Under the pieces are notes generated by a model. It saw only the letters and a list, made by a program, of their open reading frames with translations, did no database searches and was not told where the DNA came from. From positions 1 through 31,052 of the IMG/VR virus record IMGVR_UViG_3300007538_000110: a stretch of DNA of 31,052 bases; one strand, 5' to 3'. Positions 3,978 through 11,016 of this stretch are shown piece after piece. Position 1 is the first letter of the stretch, and each line of letters starts with the position of its first letter. This DNA comes from a virus. The position numbers were made by a program, and so were the translations under genes.

Positions 3978-5363
3978 ATGGCAAACATTTTTACAAACTT
4001 CTTTTCTGGTGCAAAGGATAAATTAGCAGGGAAGAACGATTTTAATAAGGCATTTTTACAGTTTTTAGGTGGTGGCTATACGTCTTACGATAGCGACATG
4101 AAGACCTACATAGATAAAGGATACAATATAAATCCTGATGTGTACGCTTGTATCTCTCAAATGTCAGTTAAAACAGCTAGTGTACCATATTCTGTTAAAC
4201 GTATTAAAGACAAGAAGTCTCATATAAAGCGTATGCAGCTCAATACAGCCACGAAAGGTAATGCGAGTATCATACAGCAGATTAAAACATTATCGTTGTC
4301 TAATAAGGCTTATGAGTCAGACGATTTAGCCTTTCCAATGGATGAGCCAAACAGTACGCAAACTTGGGTAGAGATTATATCACTTTATAAAACATACATA
4401 AGACTAACTGGAAACTGTTATTTTTATATGTTATCTCCAAAGGATGGAATTAATAGCGGTACACCCGTACAAGTTTACGTTTTACCAGCTCACTTAATGC
4501 AGATAGTAGTTAAGCCAAATGCAGATATGCTAACGGTTGAAAGCCCTATAGATCATTATATGTTAATCGAGGGAAACCAATTTATTAAGTTTGATGCAGA
4601 AGACGTTATACACGTAAAACTATCAAACCCAAACTTTGACTTTCAAGGCTCACACTTATACGGTCAATCACCATTAAGAGCTGCTTTAAGAAACTTAAAC
4701 AGTCAAAACTCAGCTTTAGAACTAAACGTAAAAACACTTCAAAACGGGGGTGCATTTGGATTTATTCACGGTAAAGGAACGGCATTAACGCCAGACCAAG
4801 CGCAAAGCATAAAAGAACGTTTAGTTGAAATGGATAACAGTCCTGAGAAACTAAGTAGAATAGCGGGGGCAAGTGGGGAATTAGCTTTTACACGTATATC
4901 GCTAACTACAGACGAATTAAAACCGTTTGACTTCTTAAAGTACGATCAAAAAGCAATATGTAATGTATTGGGATGGTCTGACAGATTGCTAAACAATAGC
5001 GAAGGAACAGGACTATCTACGGTCGATTTAAACGACATACGTAAGGGCGTTGTAACTGATAATATACTGCCTGATTTGGTGTTGTTACAAGATGCATTTA
5101 ACAAAGAGTTTTTACCAAGATTTAAAGGTTACGAAAACACTTTTATCGAGTGGGATATTACGGAATTGCCAGAAATGCAGGCAGATATGAAGATGATGGT
5201 GGAACAATTGGAGAAAGCGAGAGTAACGCCAAATGAAGTAAGAACTGCATTAAAGTATGAGACTTTAGACGACGATGGTATGGACGTTGTTTGGATGCCT
5301 ACGAACTTGCAACGAATTGACGATGTTAGTGCGGTAATGTTTGATACAGTAAATAAGCAATAG
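3978..5363 (+). CDS. Portal protein (HK97-type)
   Basis: A 461-residue protein following the terminase by 17 nt. It forms the dodecameric ring at one vertex of the head through which DNA passes. Family-typical features include the N-terminal region with VYACISQMSVKTASVPYSV (about residues 55-73), the LTGNCYFYML strand, HVKLSNPNFDF (~206-216), GQSPLRAALRNLN (~224-236), and the C-terminal LGWSDRLLNN motif (~331-340). Length and gene order (terL-portal-head protein-protease-capsid) fit the HK97 plan. Confidence 0.92.
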   Translation: MANIFTNFFSGAKDKLAGKNDFNKAFLQFLGGGYTSYDSDMKTYIDKGYNINPDVYACISQMSVKTASVPYSVKRIKDKKSHIKRMQLNTATKGNASIIQQIKTLSLSNKAYESDDLAFPMDEPNSTQTWVEIISLYKTYIRLTGNCYFYMLSPKDGINSGTPVQVYVLPAHLMQIVVKPNADMLTVESPIDHYMLIEGNQFIKFDAEDVIHVKLSNPNFDFQGSHLYGQSPLRAALRNLNSQNSALELNVKTLQNGGAFGFIHGKGTALTPDQAQSIKERLVEMDNSPEKLSRIAGASGELAFTRISLTTDELKPFDFLKYDQKAICNVLGWSDRLLNNSEGTGLSTVDLNDIRKGVVTDNILPDLVLLQDAFNKEFLPRFKGYENTFIEWDITELPEMQADMKMMVEQLEKARVTPNEVRTALKYETLDDDGMDVVWMPTNLQRIDDVSAVMFDTVNKQ

Positions 5364-5364
5364 T

Positions 5365-5508
5365 ATGAAAAAAATAAATATGCTACTTAAAAATATCAAG
5401 TATTTAATGAATAATGATATTAGTAAAAATAACGCAGTATTTACTATATCTAGTAAAGATCTAGGTGAAATTTATACAAAATCAAGACGCTTTGATGAAC
5501 TGGGATAA
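5365..5508 (+). CDS. Small hypothetical protein between portal and minor head genes
   Basis: A 47-residue frame starting 2 nt after the portal stop and overlapping the start of the next gene. It reads as a short basic N-terminus (KKINMLLKNIKYLMNN) followed by NAVFTISSKDLGEIYTKSRR. The immediate spacing after the portal stop and the lack of another gene in 5364-5464 support it. I know no function. It may help couple translation to the head protein gene that follows. Confidence 0.45.
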   Translation: MKKINMLLKNIKYLMNNDISKNNAVFTISSKDLGEIYTKSRRFDELG

Positions 5509-6253
5509 ACAACAACGAATCTACGAGCGTAAAGCCTATAGGATAATTCAGTCTCACTTAAAAAAGATATTGAACGACTTACCTATTAACAACGTCTCAG
5601 AGACTACGCTTGAATACTTGCTTAACGGTAATATTACAGACGAAAAAGTAAAAGCGATGTTGTTAGAAGTCTATAAAACTATCGGTTTAGATTACGGTAA
5701 TAAAGTCAATTTGACTTTTGAAAGAGTCAAAAAAGATAATATTTTATTTAATGATGGGTTATTAAAAGAAATTTTACTATTTTTGAATAACAAAGGCGGT
5801 GTAAGAATTACATCGATAAGATCGACTTTAATTGACTCTTTAATGCAAGAAGTTCAAGCCGAATTGGCTCGACAAGGTTCATTGATAAGCATAAGGGATG
5901 TTATTTACAACATAGTACGTAAATCGCAATCCTTTTACAAGTGGCAAGCCCTAAGAATCGCACGAACGGAAACCACTTTCGCAAGTAATTTCGCAGCGGT
6001 TAAGGCTTCTGACAATGCAGGGTTTGAAATGGTTAAAACTTGGATAGCTGTAAATGATGATAGAACACGTTTGGACCATGTAATAGAGAATATGCAAACG
6101 GTAGACTCAGATAAACCATTTGTAATGGCAGACGGTACTGAAATGATGTACGCAGGAGATCCAGATGCACCAGCAAGACAAGTTATCAATTGCAGATGTA
6201 CGATAGGATTTGAAGCTAAAAGAGATAGCGAAGGAATGTTAATACTAAAATAA
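5495..6253 (+). CDS. Minor head / head morphogenesis protein (Mu gpF, SPP1 gp7 family)
   Basis: A 252-residue protein from ATG 5495; the same frame is open from a GTG at 5465 (262 residues). ATG is preferred because other starts in the window are almost all ATG. The C-terminal MuF domain is clear: IARTETTFASNFAA, then KTWIAVNDDRTRLDHVIENM, then YAGDPDAPARQVINCRC at the end. Proteins of this family bind the portal and are packaged into the head, where they assist DNA exit or head assembly. The position between portal and protease is the usual one. Confidence 0.85.
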   Translation: MNWDKQQRIYERKAYRIIQSHLKKILNDLPINNVSETTLEYLLNGNITDEKVKAMLLEVYKTIGLDYGNKVNLTFERVKKDNILFNDGLLKEILLFLNNKGGVRITSIRSTLIDSLMQEVQAELARQGSLISIRDVIYNIVRKSQSFYKWQALRIARTETTFASNFAAVKASDNAGFEMVKTWIAVNDDRTRLDHVIENMQTVDSDKPFVMADGTEMMYAGDPDAPARQVINCRCTIGFEAKRDSEGMLILK

Positions 6254-6258
6254 AAGAT

Positions 6259-7083
6259 ATGGATTTTAAGCAGTTGAGTTACGATTTAAAGGAGTTAGAC
6301 GACACTAAGGGTGTTGTTGTAGCTTATGCAAATGCGTACGATTTTAAAGACAGTGATGGCGATATTTCGGCTAAAGGGTCATTTGATAAAACAGTAAATG
6401 AGAACTTTAAACGTATTAGAGTATTGAAAGACCACAACCCAACTATGATGGTAGGCGTTCCTTTAGTTATTAATCCTAAAGACGATTACGGGCTTCTTAC
6501 AACTACTCAATTCAACATGAATAAGCCATTAGGCAAGGATATGTTTACCGATGTGAAATTAATGCATGATAACGGTTTAAATGCTGAGTTAAGTATCGGT
6601 TACCAAGTCATTCAAAGAGACGTAAAGAATAAAAGTATAATTAATGAGTATAAGTTAATGGAATATTCTTTTTTATCTAGTTGGGGAGCGAATGAATTAA
6701 GCACAGTACAAGGCATTAAAGGAATAAAAAGTACATACGGAATATTAGAATTAATTGAGAAGTCATACAATTTAGATTACTCAGACGAAAGATTGAGAGG
6801 TATTGAAACATTATTAAAAATGGCATCGATGGAAATGGATGGAGAAGATAACGACTCTAAATTTATTAACATGATGATACCGCACCATGAGGCAGCAATT
6901 AAAATGGCTAAAAAATATGAAAGTTTACTAAAGAATAACACATTAGTAAAAATGTCTAAAGATATTATAACATCTCAGTCGAAAGAGATTGAAATAATGA
7001 AAGCACTCAATAAAAAGTCGTTAGGAACTAACACTTTGGATGAGCCGCTTATATTTGATTTATTGAAGGGATTTAAAATTTAA
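6259..7083 (+). CDS. HK97-type prohead protease with C-terminal DUF305-like domain
   Basis: A 274-residue protein. Residues 1-165 form the S78-type prohead protease: VVAYANAYDFKDSDGD, the likely catalytic His58 in LKDHNP and Ser112 in LSIGY, then EYSFLS. It would cleave the capsid scaffold domain during head maturation. Residues about 198-250 do not belong to the protease. FINMMIPHHEAAIKMAKKY (202-220) followed by DIITSQSKEIEIMKAL (235-250) has the layout of DUF305, a four-helix domain with an HH motif and Met residues. A 30-residue linker separates the two, and a short tail (DEPLIFDLLKGFKI) follows. The domain could act in assembly or bind metal. The protease call is firm; the DUF305 call is by motif only. 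Confidence 0.88.
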   Translation: MDFKQLSYDLKELDDTKGVVVAYANAYDFKDSDGDISAKGSFDKTVNENFKRIRVLKDHNPTMMVGVPLVINPKDDYGLLTTTQFNMNKPLGKDMFTDVKLMHDNGLNAELSIGYQVIQRDVKNKSIINEYKLMEYSFLSSWGANELSTVQGIKGIKSTYGILELIEKSYNLDYSDERLRGIETLLKMASMEMDGEDNDSKFINMMIPHHEAAIKMAKKYESLLKNNTLVKMSKDIITSQSKEIEIMKALNKKSLGTNTLDEPLIFDLLKGFKI

Positions 7084-7110: not shown

Positions 7111-8247
7111 ATGGAAGCATTAGAAATTAAAGCGGCTTTAGAAGGAATTAAAGCACAAGTTGAAACAAAAACAAGTGAAAACGCTGTAGAAGTGAAATCA
7201 CTAATCGAAGCCTTAGAAGGTAAAATGACAGCAGATAAAGACGCTGCTGTATTGGAATTGAAAAACGATCTTAAAGCAATTCAAGACCATGCAGACAAAT
7301 TGGATTTGAAATTACAATCTAAATCTACTCTAGAGAGTAAAGAAGACACTTTAGTAAAGTCTATCACTGAGAATTTCAAAGGAATTAGCGAAGTTCGTAA
7401 AGGAAATGCAGTACAAGTGAAAGCGGTTGGGGATATGGCTTTAACTACTAACTTAACAGGAGCACAACCAAAAGATTATAACTTTGATGTGGTTACAGTA
7501 CCGGGTCAAATGGTGAATGTATCTGATTTAGTAGGATCAGTTGCAATCAGTGGGGGTACTTACACATTTGTAAGAGAATCAGGTGCTGAGGGTTCAATTG
7601 GAGCGCAAACAGAAGGTGGTACTAAACTACAAACAGATTACGACTTTCAAATGGTAGATGTGAACACAGATTTTATTGCTGGTTTCACTCGTTACTCTAA
7701 GAAAATGGCTAACAACTTACCTTTCTTAACTTCATTCATTCCTAACGCTTTACGTAGAGACTACGCAATTGCGGAGAACGCTGCTTTTAACACTGTATTA
7801 GCTGCTGGGGCAACTGCTTCATCTGAGATCGTTACAGGGAAAAATAAAGTAGAAATGTTAATGAATGAGATTGCGAAACAAGAAAATCTTAACTACCCAG
7901 TTAACGGTATTGTTGTTCGTCCTTCTGATTATTGGGATATATTGAAAACTGAGAAGTCTACAGGTGCAGGATACGGCTTGCCTGGTGTAGTAACTCAGGA
8001 CAATGGAGTATTAAGAATCAATGGCATTCCTTTGTATAAAGCGACTTGGTTAGCTGCAAACAAATACTTTGTAGGGGATTGGTCAAGAGTGAACAAAGTA
8101 GTTACTGAGGGTCTTTCTTTAGAGTTCTCAGAAACAGAAGGAACAAACTTTGTTAAGAATAACATCACTGCTAGAATTGAAGCGCAAGTAGCTTTAGCTA
8201 TCGAGCAACCAGCAGCGTTAATCTACGGAGATTTTACAGCTGTCTAA
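7111..8247 (+). CDS. Major capsid protein (HK97 fold)
   Basis: A 378-residue protein. The N-terminal ~105 residues are a charged, helical, coiled-coil delta/scaffold region (MEALEIKAALEGIKAQVETK onwards). The HK97-fold shell domain follows, with recognisable segments VPGQMVNVSDLVG, FTRYSKKMANNLPFLTSF, NAAFNTVLAAG, GIVVRPSDYWDILKTEK and GVLRINGIPLYKATW. The upstream protease would remove the scaffold region. An A/C-rich stretch with CAACAACACA repeats and no Shine-Dalgarno precedes the ATG. The gene is the last of the head operon, directly followed by a strong terminator. Confidence 0.95.
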   Translation: MEALEIKAALEGIKAQVETKTSENAVEVKSLIEALEGKMTADKDAAVLELKNDLKAIQDHADKLDLKLQSKSTLESKEDTLVKSITENFKGISEVRKGNAVQVKAVGDMALTTNLTGAQPKDYNFDVVTVPGQMVNVSDLVGSVAISGGTYTFVRESGAEGSIGAQTEGGTKLQTDYDFQMVDVNTDFIAGFTRYSKKMANNLPFLTSFIPNALRRDYAIAENAAFNTVLAAGATASSEIVTGKNKVEMLMNEIAKQENLNYPVNGIVVRPSDYWDILKTEKSTGAGYGLPGVVTQDNGVLRINGIPLYKATWLAANKYFVGDWSRVNKVVTEGLSLEFSETEGTNFVKNNITARIEAQVALAIEQPAALIYGDFTAV

Positions 8248-8275
8248 TTAGTGGTGAAATAGATTAATAAAGAAG

Positions 8276-8310
8276 CCCCGTTACTTAATTGTAGCGGGGT
8301 TCTTTTTTTT
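8276..8310 (+). terminator. Rho-independent terminator after the capsid gene
   Basis: Stem CCCCGTTAC (8276-8284) with GTAGCGGGG (8291-8299), one G-T pair, loop TTAATT, followed by TTC and eight T (8303-8310). Confidence 0.9.
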
Positions 8311-8322
8311 ATCTTATTTTGT

Positions 8323-9813: not shown

Positions 9814-10232
9814 TAAACCCAGATAAGTACATAAGGAAAGCGGTTTACAACCTAACGAATAATATAGTAGTAGATAGTAAGATTATACCTTGTTACGATA
9901 GCCGTATTGCAGGTAATGCTGATGTATTAAACTATATCCTTATGACTGCTCAAACAAAGGATGTGGATAAGGCTACAAAATGCGGTAATAGGTGGGAAAC
10001 TTCTTTACTGATAGAAATATACACTAAAAGCAGTTCAGCAGGTAATAGCGGGTCAAGATTACTTTTAAACGACATAGAACAAGCGGTAACGGACTTATTA
10101 AATCCAAAGATAATAATAGAAGGATTTGAAACATTGATACAGAATATCACGTATGAAGCGAGCCTTGAAACGGTAACAGATACGGAGAACATATTTAGAA
10201 GTTTTTTAAGATTAAATTTAACACTAATATAA
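9810..10232 (+). CDS. Tail terminator / tail completion protein (DUF3168-like position)
   Basis: A 140-residue protein starting inside the preceding stop. Its position just before the tail tube gene, its size, and segments such as IRKAVYNLTNNIVVDSKIIPCYDSR, SLLIEIYTKSSSAGN and the closing VTDTENIFRSFLRLNLTLI fit the tail-terminator proteins that cap the tail tube and bind the head. Sequence similarity within this group is weak, so the call depends mainly on gene order. Confidence 0.65.
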   Translation: MINPDKYIRKAVYNLTNNIVVDSKIIPCYDSRIAGNADVLNYILMTAQTKDVDKATKCGNRWETSLLIEIYTKSSSAGNSGSRLLLNDIEQAVTDLLNPKIIIEGFETLIQNITYEASLETVTDTENIFRSFLRLNLTLI

Positions 10233-10239
10233 AAATAAA

Positions 10240-10680
10240 ATGGCAGGAGCAATTAAAGGAGAAGTAGGGATTTTATCTATACACGATGGTACGATATACA
10301 GACCTATAGCGTGTTTAACGTCTAACGGATTAGATACAAATGTGAGCGTAATTAGCTCAAATACTAAATGCGATCCAGGTTTAACGATTAAGCAAGGTGG
10401 TATTTTTGATTATACGCTAAATGCGGATGGGGAGTATATTGATACTACATCTGTAGGTGGTCAAACAACAAAAGCATCACATGATTACTTACTAACTAAG
10501 CAACAAGCTAAAGCGGCTGTTACTTGGAAATATGATACAGGTGTTACAGGTGCGGTGTACTACGGTACTGCAATTATTACCTCTTTATCATTGTCACAAG
10601 GTGCTGGAGATGAAATAAGCTCTTTTACGTTGAGCATGGAAGGAAGTGGAGCAATTAGTTCAGTTAATCCAATCGTATAA
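10240..10680 (+). CDS. Major tail tube protein
   Basis: A 146-residue protein of the TP901-1 major tail protein type. It would polymerise into the tube of the long non-contractile tail. Typical segments are RPIACLTSNGLDTNVSVISS (~18-37), a beta-rich middle, and the closing GTAIITSLSLSQGAGDEISSFTLSMEGSG. Expression should be high; the gene follows its neighbour by 7 nt within the neck/tail operon. A paralogue lies at 15434-15949 (shared IACLTSN / IGCLTEN element). Confidence 0.85.
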   Translation: MAGAIKGEVGILSIHDGTIYRPIACLTSNGLDTNVSVISSNTKCDPGLTIKQGGIFDYTLNADGEYIDTTSVGGQTTKASHDYLLTKQQAKAAVTWKYDTGVTGAVYYGTAIITSLSLSQGAGDEISSFTLSMEGSGAISSVNPIV

Positions 10681-10683
10681 CCT

Positions 10684-11016
10684 ATGAACAAAAAAACCAT
10701 ATTAGGAAGGGAATTTAGATTTGGAATAGGTTTCTTAAATGAACTATTGGATGGCACGGGTTTAACGTTAGATCAGTTAGGCAGTCAGGATGAAGTAGTG
10801 TTGATGCCTAAAATCATGTACTATTCTTTGTTGTACTCTTATTTGAGAGAAAATAAAGAGGTTGATTTTAGTATGTACGATATTAATGATTTGATTGATG
10901 ACAACGGTGGTGTTGGTGGTTCTTTTTGGAATGATTTTAAACTTGCTTTTAACGAGTCAATGACAAAGAATGTGCCAGTTGACGAAGGTAAAAAAAAAGT
11001 GACGAAAAAGACATAG
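10684..11016 (+). CDS. Tail assembly chaperone, short form (G-like)
   Basis: A 110-residue protein between the tail tube and tape measure genes, the standard place of tail assembly chaperones. It is acidic and helical (FGIGFLNELLDGTGLTLDQL near residues 14-33; SFWNDFKLAFNESM near 81-94) and ends in a basic run KKKVTKKT. Near its 3' end the message has nine consecutive A (10990-10998). A -1 slip there opens the frame of the next gene and yields a longer G-T-type product. The short form would bind the tape measure protein. Confidence 0.8.
   Translation: MNKKTILGREFRFGIGFLNELLDGTGLTLDQLGSQDEVVLMPKIMYYSLLYSYLRENKEVDFSMYDINDLIDDNGGVGGSFWNDFKLAFNESMTKNVPVDEGKKKVTKKT
10990..10998 (+). other. Probable programmed -1 ribosomal frameshift site (A9)
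   Basis: Frame 0 reads GGT AAA AAA AAA GTG and stops at TAG 11014-11016. The -1 frame (AGT GAC GAA AAA GAC ATA GAT) is open from the A-run through 11031 to the stop at 11345. The run A AAA AAA fits the X XXY YYZ rule, and the gene order tube-chaperone-chaperone-tape measure is where such frameshifts are known in siphophages. Confidence 0.8.

Follow-up and report, generated by a model that had tools for sequence, protein, structure and literature searches.

We found that a phage head-maturation protease carries an inserted DUF305 domain, and that DUF305 domains are joined to several other kinds of phage head protein, or encoded beside them, in other viral contigs. The protease gene lies in a 31,052-nucleotide stretch of viral DNA (IMG/VR record IMGVR_UViG_3300007538_000110, positions 1 to 31,052; hereafter the window). 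DUF305 is a familiar domain of exported bacterial proteins, many of them linked to copper. We give an even chance to the reading that in these phages it is an accessory cargo, that is, a capsid-internal, probably metal-binding and horizontally exchanged domain that its fusion partner brings into the head.

The gene order in the window (portal, Mu gpF-like protein, protease, capsid; Table 1) is that of a standard head module. The open reading frame at 6259-7083 appears to be an HK97-type head-maturation protease, as judged by a profile match to PHROG_80 (1e-30) and by its fold. A Pfam search did not list PF04586 for this frame at E values up to 10, and the score against TIGR01543 was 51.5, below the cut-off of 59. 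For the protease core, Foldseek found T4 gp21 first (E 8.4e-4) and herpesvirus proteases next. Among 43 aligned rows, H59 and S112 of the core are conserved in 90% or more. Right after the capsid gene, inside the head operon, there is a terminator-like sequence (8270-8315), a GC-rich stem and then a T run.

Table 1. Features of the fused protease gene and its neighbours in the window.
Feature	Position	Strand	Basis or remark
Portal protein (context)	3978..5363	+	PF04860 1.2e-33
Mu gpF-like head protein (context)	5465..6253	+	PF04233 1.5e-8
Head-maturation protease with inserted DUF305 domain	6259..7083	+	274 aa; PHROG_80, Pfam, AlphaFold/Foldseek
Protease core, residues 1-165	6259..6753	+	PHROG_80, fold
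Insert M188-K248, 61 codons, carrying the DUF305 unit (helices 198-223 and 227-253)	6820..7002	+	Alignment with relatives, model
MMIPHH motif, residues 205-210	6871..6888	+	Includes MxxHH, the Cu(II)-binding site of CopM
C-terminal linker and conserved peptide	7003..7080	+	Unfused relatives have both too
Major capsid protein (context)	7111..8247	+	PF05065 4e-16

The original prediction, made from the sequence, was that this protease is fused to a DUF305 domain, and this proved correct. Residues 175-250 match the Pfam family DUF305 (PF03713) with 57.8 bits against a cut-off of 27 (E 1.8e-15), in the same frame as the protease. The profile search could have found no DUF305 match and left a generic protease tail; it found the match. 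We also rejected a chance motif match, because the window has one occurrence of a degenerate form of the pattern and 100 shuffles have none, and because of the E value from Pfam. The match spans positions 74-150 of the 151-position model, that is, one repeat, where the full model covers two. PDB chains of 96-105 aa that are named DUF305 match the window domain across ~56 residues, so a single unit occurs within the family. The HH motif can be read directly in the unit (M206-I-P-H209-H210), and the best match by phmmer among PDB sequences was CopM (5fej, E 3.8e-16). The predicted link to copper is supported too. The NCBIfam model for CopM (NF049983) scored 49.6-52.4 bits on the frame, below its cut-off of 90. 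Pfam found DUF305, a putative metal binder, alone in the insert, with no predicted effector enzyme or toxin. The domain does lie where it had been placed (6844-7029, residues 196-257), but the insert that carries it begins further 5' and ends before the conserved tail, and the conserved C-terminal peptide behind it is not DUF305.

The best of five AlphaFold models of the frame (mean pLDDT 74.4; the five ranged from 50.2 to 74.4) has the protease core and two long helices that form a helical hairpin (pLDDT of this block ~77-81). With Foldseek, CopM entries aligned to the model at E 0.03-0.11 and probability 0.99-1.00, the best at 2.7 A.

We compared the fused protease to its unfused relatives, taken as the best 80 of 229 matches to the whole protein in a scan of viral contigs. 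Among these 80, DUF305 is present in 5 (L001-L005; the protein of L001 is identical to that of the window) and absent from 75, and we therefore rejected a generic protease tail. Unfused relatives read ...ETLLK|ALSNEPSETDTLNEQPLILESLKSFKL, whereas the window reads ...ETLLK, 61 residues, and then ALNKKSLGTNTLDEPLIFDLLKGFKI. That is, the insert is a clean in-frame addition of 61 codons ahead of a retained C-terminal peptide, which is a candidate procapsid-targeting peptide. The proteins annotated as prohead proteases in Flavobacterium phage 11b and Cellulophaga phage phi10:1 are 76-77% identical to the window protein over about residues 1-190; the match stops before the DUF305 unit, and a query with the domain found no match in either record. 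A sixth fused member of the window family was found by its motif (L106, a partial frame for which Pfam listed no protease family; full frame in L275). The survey of protease homologues suggested with the original prediction did turn up the fusion elsewhere, in 5 of the best 80 relatives and, by motif scans, in other contigs. We rejected a single assembly chimera because there are six window-family contigs and the fusion is also found in the genome of an isolate (see below).

The insert differs in history from the gene that carries it. In DNA comparisons, L004 and L005 are 65-81% identical over most of the protease gene, 95-98% identical from ~6822 to 7043, and mostly 43-70% identical in the capsid gene beyond ~7280. 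Similarly, L003 and L005 are 67-83% identical and then 96-98% identical in the insert. By NG86, with all 10 pairs among five sequences taken together, pS was 0.727 in the protease part and 0.193 in the insert, and pN/pS was 0.176 and 0.276, respectively. On a tree made by a quick method from 44 proteases (the window, 42 of the other loci and L106; bases 1-540 of each), the six fused rows require six changes, at least four of them forced by starred branches, which is no fewer than with shuffled labels. The window is sister to the unfused L006 on this tree (98). The island of DNA identity, the low pS and the scattered fused rows show that the insert has recently changed backbones, for which recombination is the simplest explanation.

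Nearly identical heads occur with and without the domain. The capsid proteins of L002 (fused) and L030 (unfused) are 99% identical. The window and the unfused L006 are 95.9% identical in the portal protein, 90.5% in the Mu gpF-like protein and 80% in the capsid protein (93% in its first 100 residues). The third pair that are neighbours on the tree, L005 and L077, departs from this near-isogenic pattern, their capsid proteins being only 30% identical. The existence of nearly identical heads without the domain indicates that the head does not need DUF305, and it disfavours the idea, raised in the original prediction, of an obligate internal scaffold. The other two ideas raised there, binding of metal and carriage in the head, are still plausible. 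Judged from these sequence comparisons, the insert is a mobile accessory module and not an obligate part of assembly.

DUF305 was also found fused to other head proteins. Viral contigs were scanned with back-translated motif patterns. MMIPHH gave 76 loci, the main pattern (F, three residues, M[IV]x[PAST]HHxxA) gave 77, and a pattern without the F and with a later M gave 67, 6 of which were new; a longer motif pattern recovered just 2 of 284 loci and was set aside. The 77 loci of the main scan were sorted by eye from their translations, and export was judged in this way too. Six were not DUF305, 25 were seemingly exported or membrane-bound, 30 were fusions to head proteins, 14 were standalone, and 2 had other or unresolved partners; the last three classes make up 46 DUF305 frames with no evident export signal. 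One of the last two (L199) has a weak tape-measure match (4.4e-5) and lies downstream of a head-tail adaptor gene. A Mu-type portal gene is found in the stretch that carries the other (L225). The 6 new loci of the third scan were 1 chance match, 2 S78 fusions (L287, L290) and 3 standalone genes.

Because many of the 30 fusions are near-copies, we counted groups rather than loci. The lineage groups number ~11, and six arrangements occur among them. Peptidase_S78 with a C-terminal DUF305 is found in the window family, L086/L087 (in the scan, L163 and L093), L201/L237, an Acetobacter set (L090, L108, L115, L117, L127, L150), L198, L207 and L241/L204. The other arrangements are S78 with an N-terminal DUF305 (L218), a ClpP-like head protease with a C-terminal DUF305 (L215, L221/L245, L236), an XkdF-type protease with an N-terminal DUF305 (L110; L123/L132), and Phage_Mu_F (L192) and Phage_portal (L226), each with a C-terminal DUF305. 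Pfam listed both halves in L086, L090, L110, L123, L192, L198, L201, L207, L215, L218, L226, L241, L287, L221, L236 and L204. The remaining fusions were assigned by likeness to these, and L132 ends before the protease part. On reading, the domain is missing from 23 of 25 loci of the L086 family. In three lineages the insert lies ahead of a retained C-terminal peptide, and it is always outside the catalytic domain.

None of 50,697 INPHARED records contained a fusion of DUF305 to a head protein with the queries used. The domain did match MT837989 and MT835687 (L088, L089), two records of 'Bacteriophage sp.' from faeces in which DUF305 lies beside transport, metabolic or heavy-metal efflux genes. 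We rejected these as fusions, since they are secreted DUF305 proteins in bacterial-looking contigs. Further matches to the domain were MT835605 and MT837812. In the gene table available for Thermobifida phage P318, a DUF305 frame lies at the far end, away from the head genes. Our searches of open-licence papers turned up no description of an association between DUF305 and phage heads.

Standalone DUF305 genes without an evident signal sit mostly among head genes. In L197, genes for portal, DUF305 and a ClpP-like protease overlap end to start. In L210, and on the opposite strand in L189 (1436-1798, minus strand), the DUF305 gene is flanked by portal and S78 protease; it is found between the capsid gene and a head-tail adaptor in L289; directly before genes for head scaffolding and a major head protein in L286; and directly after a head-tail adaptor gene in L223. 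In L209 a terminase (Terminase_6C, 6.8e-8) comes two genes after it, and a P22-type portal follows the terminase. By reading, L208 and L244 resemble L209; in L244 an endolysin gene intervenes. L235 has the same 124-aa frame as this group. In L222 the gene overlaps a frame with a weak terminase match (E 0.0077, under the cut-off). In L231 it is downstream of the portal and directly behind an HNH endonuclease gene (5201-5953; HNH_3, 1.1e-9) that overlaps its start, and the frame that follows it has no PHROG match. In L210 a frame with a weak NinG match, under the cut-off (9964-10755), lies just before the DUF305 gene. Both the HNH and the NinG-like frames are downstream of the portal and could help to move the cassette. 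Elsewhere, DUF305 is 27 kb from the portal (L214), in records with no match to PF04860 or PF04586 (L212, L230), or with no recognised neighbour (L288).

The fusion is also present in a named bacterium. In one scan of genome contigs, with 5 relatives, two contigs of the isolate Acetobacter okinawensis DsW_060 had the fusion (L247, L248), and the relatives in A. orleanensis, A. malorum and Gluconacetobacter dulcium (L249-L251) did not have the domain. The two DsW_060 contigs are ~5.9 kb and their fused proteases are 91% identical, which suggests two related prophages in one strain. The two unfused Acetobacter relatives are shorter and have a similar C-terminal peptide at their end, so in Acetobacter, too, the domain is ahead of the C-terminal peptide. 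The fused protein had matches in 66 of 150 genomes of Acetobacter's family, at full length only in A. okinawensis (2 places); the other places cover either DUF305 or the protease. We rejected the long open frames that surround DUF305 in some Acetobacteraceae genomes, which on reading were exported proteins or spurious frames. The Acetobacter insert may have come from its own host group, given an identity of at most ~51% and a common GDPDHDF with Acetobacteraceae proteins. The model of the A. okinawensis fusion supports the DUF305 helices weakly, with pLDDT of only ~64-73.

We compared the phage DUF305 units to one another. Among 38 aligned units, the positions conserved outside the search pattern were Q240 (38 of 38), M216 (37), I244 (37), E243 (33) and M247 (31). 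F202, M206, H209, H210 and A213 were imposed by the search pattern, and their conservation in the wider set proves nothing. A tree of 68 units was made from 62 columns, which are few for so many rows. On it, the Bacteroidota-phage-like units of three S78 lineages group with the XkdF-type L110 (99/91), the Acetobacter set groups together (100/99), and a wider set contains portal, ClpP-like, XkdF and S78 fusions and standalone genes (93/92). The groups mix partners, which indicates that related units were attached to several of them. A single clade of phage DUF305 units was compatible with the AU tests (p 0.353; for two subsets, 0.223 and 0.322).

CopM of Synechocystis (PDB 5fej, 5ffa-5ffe) resembles the window domain in its Pfam family, its MxxHH motif and its helical-hairpin fold, with 36% identity over 61-63 columns. 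As published, CopM is exported and acts in copper resistance both in the periplasm and outside the cell; it has two DUF305 repeats and is encoded as a free protein in a copper-resistance operon (PMC4335983). Its motif M53xxHH57 has been linked to the binding of Cu(II) (PMC11836926). In contrast, the window domain has one repeat and, on reading, no evident export signal, and it is internal to a head protease. Two homologues on Bacteroidota plasmids lie in a run of genes for a copper or heavy-metal P-type ATPase, a small frame, DUF305 and a multicopper oxidase.

The arrangement itself is of a known kind. Domains fused to MuF and portal proteins ('polyvalent proteins') are described, in PMC5512222, as likely packaged and injected. 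As in those effectors, the window has a foreign domain joined to a head protein within a head gene context, and MuF and portal proteins are among the classes with foreign domains in both cases. The fused domains shown there are mostly predicted enzymes, whereas here the passenger, a putative metal binder, is new, and the vehicles are mostly other, namely maturation proteases.

Partners of the kinds found here act at or inside the procapsid. In the reading that we favour, phages would bring DUF305 into the procapsid by making it part of the maturation protease, the portal or the Mu gpF-like protein, or by encoding it next to them. In the window it sits in the stretch that links the protease core to the C-terminal tail, and with that location it would enter the procapsid with the protease. 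Since the MxxHH site of the copper-binding CopM is kept, the domain most likely binds copper or a similar metal. It could then benefit the phage, either by protecting packaged DNA or by acting after release or ejection. This reading is based on the identity of the domain, its insertion, its recurrence, the choice of partners, its mobility and its dispensability for closely related heads. The pN/pS of the insert, the copper operons around the two plasmid homologues and the likely packaging of MuF- and portal-fused domains also speak for it. A domain that is accessory and mobile fits carried cargo better than it fits an obligate scaffold. Against cargo, we know of no enzymatic activity of DUF305, unlike most fused effectors; four standalone genes (L214, L212, L230, L288) have no recognised head gene nearby; the gene in L189 is on the opposite strand; and INPHARED had no fusion with the queries used.

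It is also conceivable, and in our view rather unlikely, that the domain helps assembly: the hairpin would dimerise or pack into a four-helix bundle and so raise the local concentration of the protease, portal or Mu gpF-like protein in the procapsid, aiding incorporation or activation. A single repeat would need a partner repeat to complete the two-repeat bundle of CopM, and only one repeat is present. The location of the partners and standalone genes within the head module, and of the insert outside the catalytic domain (in three lineages ahead of the kept peptide), also agree with such a role. However, close heads do without the domain (L002 and L030; the window and L006), its distribution is patchy and the insert mobile, and serving S78, ClpP-like, portal and Mu gpF-like proteins alike would demand a very general assembly function.

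Small DUF305 genes could instead settle in the head cluster as selfish or near-neutral cassettes and at times fuse in frame with no benefit, being kept by tolerant linkers. Their high mobility and patchiness, the opposite-strand copy in L189 and the HNH endonuclease gene adjoining the copy in L231 are what such cassettes might show. We consider this improbable, because pN/pS is 0.276 across the insert, because residues off the search pattern are kept in the 38 units (M216, Q240 and E243 among them), and because the domain recurs in six head-protein arrangements. A metal switch, in which metal on the hairpin turns the protease on or off or the hairpin keeps inhibitory metal from the active site, is the most doubtful of these ideas: most fusions found do join proteases, of three fold types, and the MxxHH site is present, but the portal (L226) and Mu gpF-like (L192) fusions and the standalone genes are left unexplained and close relatives work without the domain.

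If the domain is accessory cargo of the capsid, it may be an example of something more general. Tentatively, and with clearly less confidence than we have in the cargo reading itself, we propose that DUF305 is a general mobile 'virion metallochaperone', that is, a copper-binding hairpin repeatedly attached, in phages of several bacterial groups, to head proteins that reach the capsid interior, so that the particle would bring along a metal-binding protein that shields the phage DNA or acts in the next host. DUF305 occurs on head proteins in six arrangements and, in head clusters, as standalone genes. This suggests a function within capsids, one that is undescribed in the literature we found. 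The near-isogenic natural pairs, with the same head with and without the domain, allow a direct test of phage-carried metal-binding proteins, and A. okinawensis DsW_060 is an isolate that carries two fused copies.
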